In this document: piece after piece, positions 9,242-22,363 of the stretch | Numbering within the stretch: the stretch's first letter is position 1 | Layout: every line of letters starts with the position of its first letter | IMG/VR virus record: IMGVR_UViG_3300024262_000237 | Location: 1 to 24,075 of that record | Strand: one strand, 5' to 3' | Source: a virus | DNA length: 24,075 nt | Notes under the pieces: model-generated | Told to the model about the DNA's origin: nothing | What the model saw: only the letters and a program-made list of their open reading frames with translations | The model's database searches: none | Made by a program: the position numbers and the translations under genes

Positions 9242-10331
9242 TTATGTGAGTATATTAAAAGATAACGCATGGATTACTGCTGATGATGTTGGTGAATGGC
9301 TATATGATGATCATTCAGATAGATATGAGGTCCCAACTACAGGTGAATATGCTTATTTAGTTGAACAGTTTGTAAGATATACTGCCCAAACTATAGGAGT
9401 TATTGGTAATGCAATCACAATCGAATACACAGGTGGAGCAATTGCAGGATCTGAAGTCGTCACAGTTATCGGAAGTGCAATCTCTGTCCAACTTGAAGAC
9501 GGCGTATCAACGGCTGAACAAATTCGGACAGCAATCAGCGCAAGTGGTCCTGCCAGCGCCCTGGTTAACGTCCAACTCGAAGTTATTGCGCCAGATACTC
9601 TCCCAGATGTCCAAATCAGGACTCAAAATATTGCCGGACCAACAAGTTTAGCAAACGGTGTAGATGATACTCCTTTTCCTAAAACAGATGTCCCAATAAG
9701 AAGAAAAAGATTTGAATTATTAATTAATTCAGCATGTTCTAAAATAGAATCAATCTTACAAACAATAGTTTTAGCTAAAGACTTCCAAGAAGACGCAGAT
9801 GGTAACGATTCAAACGTAATTGTTCCAAGTATGTGGCCAATTTTGAGTCTTTCAGATGTTAGGATAGATTATAACAGAAATTTTGGTCCAGAAACAATAG
9901 TTGAGCAAATTAATCTACTTTTAAGAGGCATGGCAGATAAAAGAGCAGATCTTGGAGTTAATGATATTAGAATTGTTGGTAATGATATATACCTCAGAGA
10001 CGATGACAGCGATAATGTTATTGGTAGAATATTTAGTGGCTCTGTAGCTGGATCTGTAAGAGTAACTTATAAAGCTGGTTGGGCAAGAGATATCTCTGAT
10101 GTTCCTAGTGATCTTCGTCTCGCTACGCTTCAGCTTGTAGAATGGTATGAATTTAGAAGGTCTAATAAAGACGTTGGTATAGCTTCAAAAGGAGTTCGTG
10201 GAGAATCTTACTCTAAAATAACAGAGTTAGAAGAAGGAATACCGACTGAGATATATCAAACTCTGTCTTCATATATCAATGTGAGTTTTGGAATGTTTGA
10301 AAGAATTCAAAATAATATTTTTGGAGTTTAA
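9234..10331 (+). CDS. gp6-like head-tail connector (adaptor) with inserted beta-module
   Basis: 365 residues, far longer than the usual 100-200 for this family. The start (MASYVSILKDNAWITADDVG) and the helical part from residue 155 (RRKRFELLINSACSKIESIL, then VPSDLRLATLQLVEWYEFRR and SYSKITELEEGIPTEI) fit gp6-like connectors, which dock under the portal. Two things explain the extra length. Residues about 44-144 are a beta-module also found in the tail tube and fibre proteins here (FVRYTAQTIGVIGNAITIEY, SEVVTV, QLEDGVSTAEQI). A second stretch (about 200-290) is strand-rich and looks family-specific. The gene overlaps the NlpC/P60-like gene by 8 bases and is followed immediately by the gp10-like gene. 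Connector call is good. The role of the insert is unknown. Confidence 0.8.
   Translation: MASYVSILKDNAWITADDVGEWLYDDHSDRYEVPTTGEYAYLVEQFVRYTAQTIGVIGNAITIEYTGGAIAGSEVVTVIGSAISVQLEDGVSTAEQIRTAISASGPASALVNVQLEVIAPDTLPDVQIRTQNIAGPTSLANGVDDTPFPKTDVPIRRKRFELLINSACSKIESILQTIVLAKDFQEDADGNDSNVIVPSMWPILSLSDVRIDYNRNFGPETIVEQINLLLRGMADKRADLGVNDIRIVGNDIYLRDDDSDNVIGRIFSGSVAGSVRVTYKAGWARDISDVPSDLRLATLQLVEWYEFRRSNKDVGIASKGVRGESYSKITELEEGIPTEIYQTLSSYINVSFGMFERIQNNIFGV
9363..9665 (+). repeat. Shared beta-module, copy in the connector gene
   Basis: Codes for connector residues about 44-144. The pattern is an aromatic-Y/F-T-A strand, G-x-x-GN-x-I-x-I-x-Y, a Gly-rich loop with AGSEVV, then V-Q-L-E-DGVSTA, a helix with QIRTAI, and a closing LANG turn. 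It lines up with the modules in the genes at 11943 and 19565. From 9421 to 9660 the DNA is about 49% G+C by hand count (118 of 240), against 33% and 28% in the flanking 60-base lines. Confidence 0.8.
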
Positions 10332-11384: not shown

Positions 11385-11669
11385 ATGGCACATTACAGAG
11401 GTCGAGACAACATCAACAAAAGAGTTGTTAAAACCGAAGCTTTGTTTTCAGATCGTCCTAGATCTTTCGTTTTTCAATATCGACCATTAGGATTAAGAAT
11501 TTCAGGCGACGATATGTCAGCTGTTGATTTTCAAGACAATGTTGGATTAGATATTACCTTTACATACGGTGGATCAGTCTATACGTTTGCAAAAGCCGAT
11601 ATCGTTATTGTTAGGCGACTAAGAACTAGAAAGTATGCCCTTGAACCATCAACCGTAACAATTGTTTAG
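11385..11669 (+). CDS. Small unknown protein upstream of the tail tube gene
   Basis: 94 residues, ATG 11385 behind GGAAGGA. Basic N-terminus (MAHYRGRDNINKRVVKTEAL), then strands around RSFVFQYRPLGLRISGDDM, LDITFTYGGSVYTFAKADI and VIVRRLRTRKYAL. It reads as a compact beta-rich domain without Cys or signal peptide. Not recognised. Position just before the tube gene suggests a tail component or tail assembly factor. Confidence 0.6.
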   Translation: MAHYRGRDNINKRVVKTEALFSDRPRSFVFQYRPLGLRISGDDMSAVDFQDNVGLDITFTYGGSVYTFAKADIVIVRRLRTRKYALEPSTVTIV

Positions 11670-11942: not shown

Positions 11943-13532
11943 ATGGGACGTAAATTATTAAGCCGCTCGTCCGAATTTTTAGGTGTTGACCAGAAAATCT
12001 GGATCGGCCTTGAAACGGGTGGGTTTGGTGACGCTGCTACAGGAGGACTTGTTCCTGCCGATGCGGGCGCTGTTGACTTTAATACAGCTGGTGTAACTTT
12101 TGACATTCCAAGAGACGATTCACCATCTCGTTCAGGAAGATCTGTTTTAGCTAGACTATCAGGAAAGAAAACTGTTGAAGCTACTTTAGAGTCTCAAATT
12201 ATTCCTGGTGATCCTGATATTTTAGGAAACCCAACACTTCCACCAATGCATCCATTTATTTTGACTGCGTTTGGAGAGGTTGATGTTACTAATCCAGCTG
12301 AAATTGTTTATAAGCTTTCAAGGTTTAATGCAAACTCTGCAAGAATTCTCGAAGAATCAACACATTATTCTAGATTAACTGTTGGAGCCATTATGGACTC
12401 TATTACTTTTAATCTTCCTGGTGATGATAAAGCTACAATGGCAATGGAAGGTTTTGCTCAAGATAGTTATATTGCAGGTGAAACTGTGTTAGCTCAGCTT
12501 CTTACAGGAGCAGAGCAGTTAGCTTCTCTTATAGTTCAAGACCTAACTTATACTGCATTAGCAGCTTCTGGAATTAATGGTAACTTAGTTAATATTACTT
12601 ATGTTGGCGGTGGTACTGCTGGATTAGAAGTAGTTACTGTTTCAGGAAACGATATTGAAGTTCAAATTGAAGATGGAGTATCTATTGCATCTGAAGTTGA
12701 ATCTGCAATTAATGGTTCTCCTGCTGCTCTTCTTTTAGTAACAGTTGCTCTTACTGGAGCTGATGTTGCTCAAGTAATTGCTGCTCAAGCTTTTCTTGAA
12801 GGTGGACTAGGCGTTAGTGATTTTAAAGTAGCAACTGGTAAAGGAATTCTTTTTGAGTTTGGAGCTTATATCGATGTTATCGATGCTTCTGATGGTGATA
12901 CTATTACTACTCAGAAAGCTAAAGTTCTTGCTGTTAATGGAACTCCTATTCCTACTAATGCTGGTGGACCTAATGCTGATATAATTACAGTAGATCTTCC
13001 TTTAGCTGCGGCTTTAGCTGGTGACTTTGTAATTGGACATGCTCCAGAAACTTATAACCCAATTAGTTCAGAAAAAGCTCTTCTTGGATTAAAAGGTAGT
13101 TTAAGCATTGTTGGTGCTACTGTTACTGACTGTGAGATGATTTCAGCAGAAATTTCACTAACAAACAACTACACTAAGAAAGACTTTATTTATGGAACAG
13201 GAAAGATGTGTGGATTTGTTCCTGATAAGAGAAGAGAAGTTATGCTTAACTTAGAGCTTCTTTTAAATAAAGATAACCTTTCTTTCTATATGAGAAACAA
13301 GTGTTTTATTGCAGAGGACATTACAATTACTCTTGAACCTCAAGATATTTGTGGTCCTGCTTATTCTTCTTCACTTGGTAGAACGTTTGAGTTTCACTTC
13401 CCTAAAGTAGAATTCAATATTCCACCTATTGAGAATCCTGCAGACGCTTATGTTACTCTTGCTCTAGAAGGTAAAGCTCTTGCTCCTTCTGGTAGTCAAT
13501 TGGACGAAGAGTTTACTTTAACTATTAAGTAA
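11943..13532 (+). CDS. Major tail tube protein with inserted beta-module
   Basis: 529 residues, ATG 11943 behind AAGGAG. It polymerises into the tail tube. The N-terminal part (FLGVDQKIWIGLETGGFGDA, FDIPRDDSPSRSGRSVLARL, SGKKTVEATLES) and the end (LNLELLLNKDNLSFYM, FHFPKVEFNIPPIENPADAY, VTLALEGKAL) follow the layout of tube proteins that bear a repeated core of two similar halves. Residues about 196-290 are the shared beta-module (IVQDLTYTALAASG, TAGLEVVTV, VQIEDGVSIASEV, EGGLGV). Residues 291-370 add a further strand-rich segment. Domains inserted in tube proteins usually project outward from the tail. It is followed by two terminators, fitting high expression. Confidence 0.78.
   Translation: MGRKLLSRSSEFLGVDQKIWIGLETGGFGDAATGGLVPADAGAVDFNTAGVTFDIPRDDSPSRSGRSVLARLSGKKTVEATLESQIIPGDPDILGNPTLPPMHPFILTAFGEVDVTNPAEIVYKLSRFNANSARILEESTHYSRLTVGAIMDSITFNLPGDDKATMAMEGFAQDSYIAGETVLAQLLTGAEQLASLIVQDLTYTALAASGINGNLVNITYVGGGTAGLEVVTVSGNDIEVQIEDGVSIASEVESAINGSPAALLLVTVALTGADVAQVIAAQAFLEGGLGVSDFKVATGKGILFEFGAYIDVIDASDGDTITTQKAKVLAVNGTPIPTNAGGPNADIITVDLPLAAALAGDFVIGHAPETYNPISSEKALLGLKGSLSIVGATVTDCEMISAEISLTNNYTKKDFIYGTGKMCGFVPDKRREVMLNLELLLNKDNLSFYMRNKCFIAEDITITLEPQDICGPAYSSSLGRTFEFHFPKVEFNIPPIENPADAYVTLALEGKALAPSGSQLDEEFTLTIK
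12528..12812 (+). repeat. Shared beta-module, copy in the tail tube gene
   Basis: Codes for residues about 196-290 of the tube protein. It has the full uninterrupted pattern: VQDLTYTA, GNLVNITYVGGGTAGLEVV, VSGNDIEVQIEDGVSIAS, EVESAINGSPAALLLV, FLEGGLG. Base composition is like the surrounding gene, unlike the connector copy. Confidence 0.85.
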
Positions 13533-19564: not shown

Positions 19565-22363
19565 GTGAGTCAAAATATTTTTCTTGATCCATCCGTTTCG
19601 TCTTTGCCAGCATTCGCTCCTGGTGCAGTTGGTAATGGTACCCTTACAGTTGATAAGCTGTCTCATTTTACCGTAACTCAAGATTATACAGCTATTTGTA
19701 CAGCCACAGATCCTTTCACTGTCTTTAATATAATCGGAAGCTTAGATGGTCCTGTTGGTGTCGCTATAGTTGGAACACAATTTGTTGATCAAGATAAAAA
19801 AATATTCTTAACGGTAAATCAAGGTCCTATTTTATTTGAAGTAGGAGATACCTTTGAATTCAGTGTAATACAAGGTACCGACTTAACACAATCTAATTTA
19901 GATACTTATAATGAACTTCCTCAAAAGAATTTTGGTCTTGGAGTAATTGGAGAAAACAAAGGTGACCACAATGTTCGCTTTAACGAAGCTGCTCAATTAG
20001 CTTTTAGAGAAATTCAAGACTTAAAATTTACAAGTAAATTAGCAGGTTCCTTAGGTAACTTAATATCTATTGAGTATTTTTTAGGAACTGTATTGGCTTC
20101 TGCTTCTAAAGTTATTCAAGATTTAACATATACTGCAAGCATTCCAGGAGCTTCTGGCAATGATATTCAGATTGCTTATGAACAATTTACTCCTGCGGTT
20201 CAAGCTGAAAGGCAAGTTCAAGATATTTTATTTACTGCTAAACCAATAGGTGTTTTAGGAAACGCTATTTCTGTTGAATATATCGCTGGAGGAACAGCTG
20301 GTTCTGAGGGCGTAAATGTTATTGGTAGTAAAGTTCAAGTTCAAATTGATGATGGAGTATCAACAGCTGATCAAGTTAGAGTTGCTATAGGTGGAAATCC
20401 TACAGCTTTTGCTTTATTAGATGGTATTTCAACAGGAACAGGATTAGAACCTCAAACAACTCAGGCAGAAATATTCTTACTTGGTGGATTAGACGCTATA
20501 GGAGACGCTGGAAACGAAGTAGTCACTGTTTTGGTTAATTTAATTACAGTTAAATTAGAAAGCGGAGTATCTACTGCTCAAAATGTTTATGATGCTATAT
20601 TAGGAAGTGCTCCTGCTTTAGCCTTAGTGACACCTTCAATCTCAGGAACACCTGCTACAACACAAATAGCTCCAGTTATTGCTACTAATTTAGAAAACGG
20701 AGCTGATAATGTTGGTATTCCTGGTTCTGAAGTAGTAAACGTAGTTGATAATCAAATACAAGTAACTTTTGTTTCTGGATTATCATCAGCTCAACAAATA
20801 AAAACAGCCATTGAAGGAAATGTAAGTGCAGATGCTTTAGTTACAGTAACTTTAATTGGTTTAGGACAACAAGAAACAACAGACTTACAAGCATTGGCTA
20901 CCGCTGATATTACTAACGGTGAAAGTTTGGATGTTTCTGATGCAAACGACGTAAGAACTGTTAGATTTTATTATAGAATTGATACTGTAGATGTTCCTCC
21001 TGGTTCAGGTGATGATATACCTATTGATATTGCAACTGGAGATACAAGCGGTGTTGTTGCTATAAAGACAGCGGCCACTATTAATTCAGAACCAGAGTGG
21101 AATGTTGCAACACCAGCAACCTCAGTATTTAGAGTTATAAATGCAGATGTAGGACCATCAACTGATATATCAAATGTTGATGTAGGTGTAGGACAAGCCG
21201 TACCTTTTAATATTGTTAAGGTTTTAGATGGCTTTTCAATAGGAGAAGAACTAGAAACTTCTCCAGTAAGTAGAACTTTTCTAGGCGGCGGTTTAGGACA
21301 AGGAACCTATGCTTTTAACACAAAAGAACTAACAGTTCCAGGAAGTTTTAATGAAGGTAATGCTGGAATTTTAGTTACTGGGATGAATAATCAAGGTGAT
21401 GAGACAACTTCGGGAGTATCTCTTAAAAAAGGAGTGGTAACTCTTGATGATAATGTTCCAGCAAATTTATCTGGACCAATTGTTGATAATACTCAGAAAA
21501 CCATAAATAATCTTATTCAAAATGGCAAGGTAGTCTTTGTTTCTGAGAACGAAGGTAAAGTTCTTTGGAGTAAGCCTGCTGGAACATTAGATATTGAAGA
21601 AGATTTAAAAATATTTTTTACTGAAACTGGAATTGTTAATACTATTTTAGCTTCAAACTTTCCTATAGCAATTGCTGATGGAGAACATATTTGGGTTGTA
21701 GTTGATAGGCAGAATTCTGTTAACTTAACTATAAACCAAGGAACAACTGTACCAGACTCTCCTAATGGAGAAAACGTCTTTAGGTTGTTAACACGAGTAG
21801 GAACTAGTCTTATTTGGTGGGACAATACCTTTCAAAGAGAAGGAAAAAAACTTAGAATTGGTGAAGGAGCGGGAACTGGCGCATTTCAAGAAAAACTTGG
21901 TGTCGGCAATGGAGTCCAAACTTCCTTTCCAATCTTATCTGGTCTGTTTCCGGTTAATAAAGACTCTATTTTAGTTTTTGCTAATGCTCACCAGTTTGTA
22001 GATACAGAGTGGGACTGGAATGAAATAACAAACGATATAGAGTTTGTTGTTGCTCCAGAAGTTGGAGTTGAACCTTATATATACTACTTAACTGATGGAG
22101 ACTCAATATCACCTCCATCAGTTTCTGGTATTGAACAATCATATGTTCATACGGTTTCTGTATTAGAACAAATAAACAAGGAATTACAGTTAATTGCTAC
22201 ACCAGCGCAACCTTCTAAAATGTTAGTAGACATTATAGGAGGAACATCTCAAATTATAAATATAGATTTTCAAATTACTGGTGATTTATTTCAATGGACA
22301 GGTTTAGCATTAGACGGAGTTTTAACATCTGGAGATAAAGTGAGATTTCACTTCTTTAGTTAA
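19565..22363 (+). CDS. Large tail fibre / baseplate protein with nested beta-modules
   Basis: 932 residues, GTG start at 19565 behind GGAG. Domains in order: an N-terminal beta region (1-145, with GNGTLTVDKLSHFTV and QGPILFEVGDTFEF); half-modules N1, N2, N3 (149-247) then C3, C2, C1 (248-453) of the shared beta-module; a different fibre-type repeat (about 464-558, VRFYYRIDTVDVPPGSGDD to IVKVLDGFSIG); a central beta region with TQKTINNLIQNGKVVFVSEN; a C-terminal fibre domain (777-845, VGNGVQTSFPILSGLFPVN to PYIYYLTDG); and a final strand-rich tail. No catalytic motif seen. It is the first gene of the fibre block, so a tail-tip hub or fibre base is likely. Receptor binding is inferred. Confidence 0.75.
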   Translation: MSQNIFLDPSVSSLPAFAPGAVGNGTLTVDKLSHFTVTQDYTAICTATDPFTVFNIIGSLDGPVGVAIVGTQFVDQDKKIFLTVNQGPILFEVGDTFEFSVIQGTDLTQSNLDTYNELPQKNFGLGVIGENKGDHNVRFNEAAQLAFREIQDLKFTSKLAGSLGNLISIEYFLGTVLASASKVIQDLTYTASIPGASGNDIQIAYEQFTPAVQAERQVQDILFTAKPIGVLGNAISVEYIAGGTAGSEGVNVIGSKVQVQIDDGVSTADQVRVAIGGNPTAFALLDGISTGTGLEPQTTQAEIFLLGGLDAIGDAGNEVVTVLVNLITVKLESGVSTAQNVYDAILGSAPALALVTPSISGTPATTQIAPVIATNLENGADNVGIPGSEVVNVVDNQIQVTFVSGLSSAQQIKTAIEGNVSADALVTVTLIGLGQQETTDLQALATADITNGESLDVSDANDVRTVRFYYRIDTVDVPPGSGDDIPIDIATGDTSGVVAIKTAATINSEPEWNVATPATSVFRVINADVGPSTDISNVDVGVGQAVPFNIVKVLDGFSIGEELETSPVSRTFLGGGLGQGTYAFNTKELTVPGSFNEGNAGILVTGMNNQGDETTSGVSLKKGVVTLDDNVPANLSGPIVDNTQKTINNLIQNGKVVFVSENEGKVLWSKPAGTLDIEEDLKIFFTETGIVNTILASNFPIAIADGEHIWVVVDRQNSVNLTINQGTTVPDSPNGENVFRLLTRVGTSLIWWDNTFQREGKKLRIGEGAGTGAFQEKLGVGNGVQTSFPILSGLFPVNKDSILVFANAHQFVDTEWDWNEITNDIEFVVAPEVGVEPYIYYLTDGDSISPPSVSGIEQSYVHTVSVLEQINKELQLIATPAQPSKMLVDIIGGTSQIINIDFQITGDLFQWTGLALDGVLTSGDKVRFHFFS
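20009..20923 (+). repeat. Nested array of the shared beta-module (N1-N2-N3-C3-C2-C1)
   Basis: Three N halves start at residues 149, 183 and 217 (IQDLKFTSKLAGSLGN, IQDLTYTASIPGASGN, VQDILFTAKPIGVLGN), a period of 34. Three C halves start with E at 248, 318 and 389 (EGVNVIG, EVVTVLVN, EVVNVVDN), a period of 70-71, each with a GVSTA or GLSSA turn and a closing GG/NG. Only N3-C3 is continuous through YIAGGTAGSEG. The order suits a module inserted into another module's loop, twice. Confidence 0.8.

Follow-up and report, generated by a model that had tools for sequence, protein, structure and literature searches.

A virion domain probably nested three deep within its own loop in a phage tail protein

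The 932-residue product of a tail gene in a viral record (IMG/VR IMGVR_UViG_3300024262_000237; the 24,075 nucleotides analysed are called the window here) very probably contains a triple nest of one virion domain of about 92 residues, built by insertion of whole modules into the loop between the second and third strands (beta2 and beta3) of a resident copy. We read it this way because relatives hold none, two or three of each half of the module at the same site, tail sheaths offer a parallel series, further nests occupy other loops, modules turn over as units, and both AlphaFold2 models and a pairing test point in this direction. Directly established are the halves and their order, their equal numbers in relatives, empty and part-filled sites, recurrent nests, and a model of the single copy as one domain.

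Three N halves followed by three C halves

The window carries a tail gene cluster encoding a head-tail adaptor, a neck protein, a tail terminator, a tail tube (PF18906), a tape measure protein and fibre-like proteins. The gene for the 932-residue protein lies two after the tape measure gene, and its product is a virion or fibre-like tail protein. As a whole, this protein gave no match in Pfam, PHROGs or solved structures by sequence search, nor in phage records (tblastn) or in a scan of viral contigs with the single protein. Unlike these whole-protein searches, module profiles did reach relatives: a profile made from the five copies in the window led to 39 viral loci and a wider profile to 80, while a profile of the outer C halves, a diverse set, varied too much for scanning.

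To describe the nest we refer to the two parts of each module as its N half and its C half. For either half an HMM was trained on 102 single modules taken from other contigs; the window and the family of the 932-residue protein were left out. These independent profiles matched all six halves (Table 1), in the order N1-N2-N3-C3-C2-C1 over residues 148–455; the top score among 500 shuffled controls was 3.7 bits for the N HMM and 7.5 bits for the C HMM. The N halves start at residues 148, 182 and 216 (a period of 34) and the C halves at about 247, 317 and 388 (a period of 70–71). A first-pass annotation, made from the sequence alone, had described this arrangement and these periods, and it was also right that only the innermost pair is joined through an intact GGTAGSE loop, the motif being found only between N3 and C3. 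The single N-C copies that it had noted elsewhere in the window were located as well.

That annotation had placed the nest at 20009–20923. The order of halves stands but the end does not, since alignment with relatives assigns the strand that closes the outermost module, ELETSPVSRTFLGGG, to a position well downstream. In relatives beta5 runs directly into this strand, whereas in the window the strand follows about 115 residues further on, after an insertion that is absent in all aligned relatives and has low pLDDT in the AlphaFold2 model. A strand is predicted in the ELETSPVSRTFLGGG region at construct residues 451–455. The insertion showed no similarity to the module in a profile comparison and no match in phage records.

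Table 1. Positions of the nest, its parts and related features in the window
Feature	Coordinates	Strand	Evidence
Tail protein, 932 aa, carrier of the predicted triple nest	19565..22363	+	ORF
Conserved N-terminal domain, upstream of nest	19565..20002	+	46–72% identity across 10 viral loci
N1, N half of outermost module, residues 148–181	20006..20107	+	28.3 bits
N2, N half of middle module, residues 182–215	20108..20209	+	30.4 bits
N3, N half of innermost module, residues 216–246	20210..20302	+	47.1 bits
Intact GGTAGSE loop (beta2-beta3) of innermost module; insertion point in the outer modules	20288..20308	+	pattern found once in the record
C3, C half of innermost module	20303..20491	+	59.7 bits
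C2, C half of middle module, including linker AIGDAGNEVV	20492..20704	+	58.0 bits; linker common to relatives
C1, body of C half of outermost module	20705..20881	+	43.5 bits, model positions 1–53 of 62
Insertion specific to the window, about 115 aa, in beta5-beta6 loop of outermost module	20882..21244 (boundaries approximate)	+	alignment, low pLDDT
Displaced last strand of outermost module, ELETSPVSRTFLGGG, residues 561–576	21245..21292	+	alignment with C1 end of relatives
Single module in tail tube protein	12534..12812	+	tube is PF18906; module-less homologues about 100 aa shorter
Single module in head-tail adaptor protein	9372..9659	+	adaptor phrog_442; homologues of 234–242 aa without module
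94-aa neck-region protein, module-less in window	11385..11669	+	homologues with one module or one split module

Empty, part-filled and filled sites in relatives

Using the conserved N-terminal domain, we found relatives at the nest site in ten loci. One of them (L054) has an empty site with zero modules, the chain passing straight from NLRYDN to KKFSFNADEVTDP. Another (L052) carries N-N-C-C, and N-N-N-C-C-C is present in nine distinct proteins, counting that of the window and L144. In L050 the sequence stops at the contig end after N-N-N. In the complete proteins at the nest site the N halves always equal the C halves in number, and neither N-N-C-C-C nor any other mismatched combination was found. 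Insertion of a complete module into the loop between Y-x-x-GG and the E-V-V strand, as proposed in the first-pass annotation, accounts for every relative examined at this site, and the differently nested forms that it suggested looking for exist: zero, two and three levels here, and a one-to-two series in the sheath described below.

The nest could also have grown in the opposite direction, with new outer modules wrapped around existing ones, or recombination could have removed outer levels; we consider this unlikely. L052 leaves some room for it, having two levels of which the outer pair could not be placed. Its levels were compared with loops masked, since an intact loop inflates similarity to level 3, and both halves of its inner module then matched level 2 of the triple nests, which would fit level 3 having been inserted later, within level 2. 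Moreover, wrapping requires two coordinated joins. A reading of L052 as lacking the outermost level came from the first comparison and was gone once the intact loop was masked.

The module as one domain and the pairing of its halves

From 60 aligned single modules, AlphaFold2 predicted one compact domain (pLDDT 89, pTM 0.81) with the elements beta1, a less certain segment, beta2, beta3, beta4, two helices, beta5 and beta6. In this model the N half is beta1-beta2, the C half is beta3-beta4-alpha-alpha-beta5-beta6, and GGTAGSE forms the beta2-beta3 loop. With only two of the six predicted strands, the N half is therefore unlikely to be a self-standing unit, and we saw nothing to suggest that each half folds independently.

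Structure prediction for the nest itself (window construct, ten aligned sequences) repeated the secondary structure of the single domain, mostly at pLDDT 85–97; pTM was 0.46 for a construct that includes a long low-confidence segment. The first-pass annotation had imagined a branched stack of domains. Of branching there was no sign, and nested insertion predicts a linear stack.

We then asked which halves belong together by correlating the similarity profile of an N half to all single N halves with the corresponding profile of each C half. Among single modules this procedure recognised the true N-C pairs with an AUC of 0.87. Applied to nine related nested proteins, it gave the pairing N1-C1, N2-C2, N3-C3 the highest mean of the six possibilities (0.415 vs 0.323 for the next). 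This pairing was best in four of the nine proteins and not best in five, the window protein among them. The test lends modest support to nested pairing. In three dimensions, N1 would be expected to pack with C1 and N2 with C2 inside the nest.

The halves might be nested in sequence while the levels swap strands to form a single interdigitated body, as described for HABAS domains inserted recursively in cyanobacterial RNA polymerase (PMC11515920). Besides this precedent, the pairing signal of N1 and N2 is weak, and extra strands are predicted by AlphaFold2 in the N1-N2 and N2-N3 linkers. We nevertheless think such an exchange quite unlikely, as nested pairing has the top mean score and the secondary structure of the single domain is kept at each level.

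Nests in other proteins and other loops

A DUF3383 tail sheath (L089; PHROG 205, E 1.5e-63) contains a nested pair, N-N-C-C, where three other sheaths (L071, L100 and L065) have a single module. The sheath is an independent comparison of one with two modules, at the same loop but in a protein unrelated to the 932-residue one. Two more of the module's loops harbour nests: the beta3-beta4 hairpin (twice in L101, and in L042) and, in L010, the loop that connects beta4 to the helix. Nesting arose in at least four different proteins and at three loops. The half profiles, together with empty, single and nested alleles, show one domain broken by a whole second member of its own family.

Separate tandem duplication of N halves and of C halves, arriving at three each by chance, would suit the regular periods of 34 and 70–71 residues, and whole-module tandem arrays do exist elsewhere, but it is very improbable given that the nest site shows only matched states (none, two or three of each half) with no unequal complete relative, that the sheath goes from one of each to two of each, and that an N half is just two strands of the predicted domain.

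Not every insert in a module is another module. In L009 (3329–4390), a homologue of the 94-residue neck-region protein of the window, a 140-aa segment lies within the beta2-beta3 loop, and a profile comparison found no similarity between it and the module. This segment and the insertion in C1 of the window were considered as extra module copies and rejected on the profile comparisons; both are therefore treated as foreign inserts.

Plain tandem arrangement is the non-nested alternative: five short proteins (L031, L067, L093, L102 and L122) consist of three modules as N-C-N-C-N-C.

Gain and loss of single modules

After removal of duplicates, our census held 134 module-bearing proteins, 101 of them with a single N-C module and the remainder tandem, nested or partial. 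In the wider set the host proteins are tail tubes, sheaths, SU10-type adaptors, baseplate proteins, central fibre J and tail fibres. Tail tubes measure 419–425 aa without the module and about 520–536 aa with it, and adaptors 234–242 aa and about 341–390 aa, respectively. The family of the 94-residue protein provides a second presence/absence series, with no module in the window, L046 and L055, one module in L007, L011 and L057, and a module split by the foreign insert in L009. In a tree of 14 tail tubes, calculated with the module removed, module presence changes three times, and at least two of these changes are forced by supported branches. Judged from these comparisons, single modules evidently come and go as whole units, and the module behaves as a promiscuous virion domain that is gained and lost whole.

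Mean identity between modules is 47% within one site across phages and 40% between sites of different phages. Since average identity is only about 40% between modules from different sites or levels, most insertions look old. Modules of one phage in different genes share 42% identity, barely above the 40% background, so that a general homogenisation of modules within genomes was not supported. Single pairs from different genes of one phage do reach high identity (Ga_P/Ga_T, 67%; Gh_A/Gh_P, 62%), and these values suggest occasional copying between genes.

Relation to known domains

No family in Pfam or PHROGs accounts for the module. Eight of 24 modules match the sheath family Phage_sheath_domII (PF17481) below threshold, with a best E of 7e-4 and scores of 13.1 and 17 bits for the modules shown against a gathering cut-off of 31.4 bits; seven of the 24 match the sheath PHROG phrog_279 (best E 3e-3). 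The nest model, too, had sheath proteins as its top matches among solved structures (E 1.1e-3), with poor superposition (low TM), and in the DUF3383 sheaths L071, L100, L065 and L186 the module corresponds in position to the variable middle region in the sheath of Vibrio phage XM1 (7KH1). By sequence, then, a distant relationship between the module and tail-sheath domain II is possible. PF17481 is a domain of sheaths, whereas the module is found far outside sheaths too. The single-module model had no match among solved structures (best E 3.0), and we therefore do not claim membership in sheath domain II.

To our knowledge, a domain inserted recursively into itself is rare. The precedent is Si3 of the cyanobacterial RNA polymerase beta' subunit, with its recursively inserted HABAS/SBHM domains (PMC11515920, PMC10802570, PMC13114784), whose nesting reaches six levels (PMC13114784). 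Both cases involve small beta domains placed, over several levels, inside members of their own family. Si3, however, is built from another domain at a single conserved locus of a cellular enzyme, whereas the phage module occurs in many structural genes, with repeated independent nests, several insertion loops and intermediates of zero, one, two and three copies. Recursive self-insertion is thus known from HABAS/SBHM domains, and what is new here are clear intermediates and several independent occurrences in phage tails. A limited literature search brought up no earlier description of self-nesting in phage tails.

Optional extra domains on virion proteins, phage sheaths included, are thought to help adhesion or adsorption, or stability (PMC9230969). 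The module resembles the promiscuous Ig-like domains of phages in being such an optional addition, but differs from them in having two helices, in being usually an internal insertion and in accepting copies of itself. No Ig-like Pfam family matched it, either with single modules or among the families matched by the set of 24 modules.

Formation and possible role of the nest

In the nest as we propose it, the chain would enter module 1, leave it at the beta2-beta3 loop for module 2, leave that at the same loop for module 3, and then finish modules 3, 2 and 1 in turn. Each step would have a complete module landing in frame in the beta2-beta3 loop of a resident copy. The donors are likely to be module copies that the phage carries elsewhere among its structural genes, and the route may be short-homology or illegitimate recombination with the same genome or that of a co-infecting phage. 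Such insertions are presumably tolerated since both ends of the domain are near each other.

To judge by its host proteins, the module probably decorates the surface of tail tube, sheath, neck and fibre-like proteins or serves there as a spacer, and from these hosts we predict surface exposure and binding to cell surfaces or stabilisation of the virion. In L040 the N-terminal region and the nest head a protein of 1841 aa that has a C1q-type domain close to the C terminus. The nest is therefore likely to act as spacer or decoration at a fibre-like protein's base. From its location, it probably lengthens that base and gives more contact surface.

Relatives with none, one, two and three copies indicate that the module enters and leaves whole, and the viruses therefore seem to extend their tail attachments in the manner of a Russian doll. 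On the broader proposal, that an undescribed family of tail domains moves as a unit between virion genes, repeatedly enters its own loops and lets tails grow by recursive nesting, our judgement is evenly balanced. If true, nesting rather than tandem repetition would be a general route of growth for phage adhesion structures. With states of zero, one, two and three copies at the same sites, the order and rules of domain nesting become testable in small proteins, and phage annotation gains a widespread virion domain family that had not been catalogued.

Two further observations concern the surroundings of the module. In L023 (4638–5531) it seemingly lies inside a different phage module, of the VNGVTFTA type. 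Relatives also occur in bacterial assemblies (L126–L137), several Bdellovibrio-like and planctomycete MAGs among them, and some of the relatives (L128 and L129) are in proteins of about 1790 aa.
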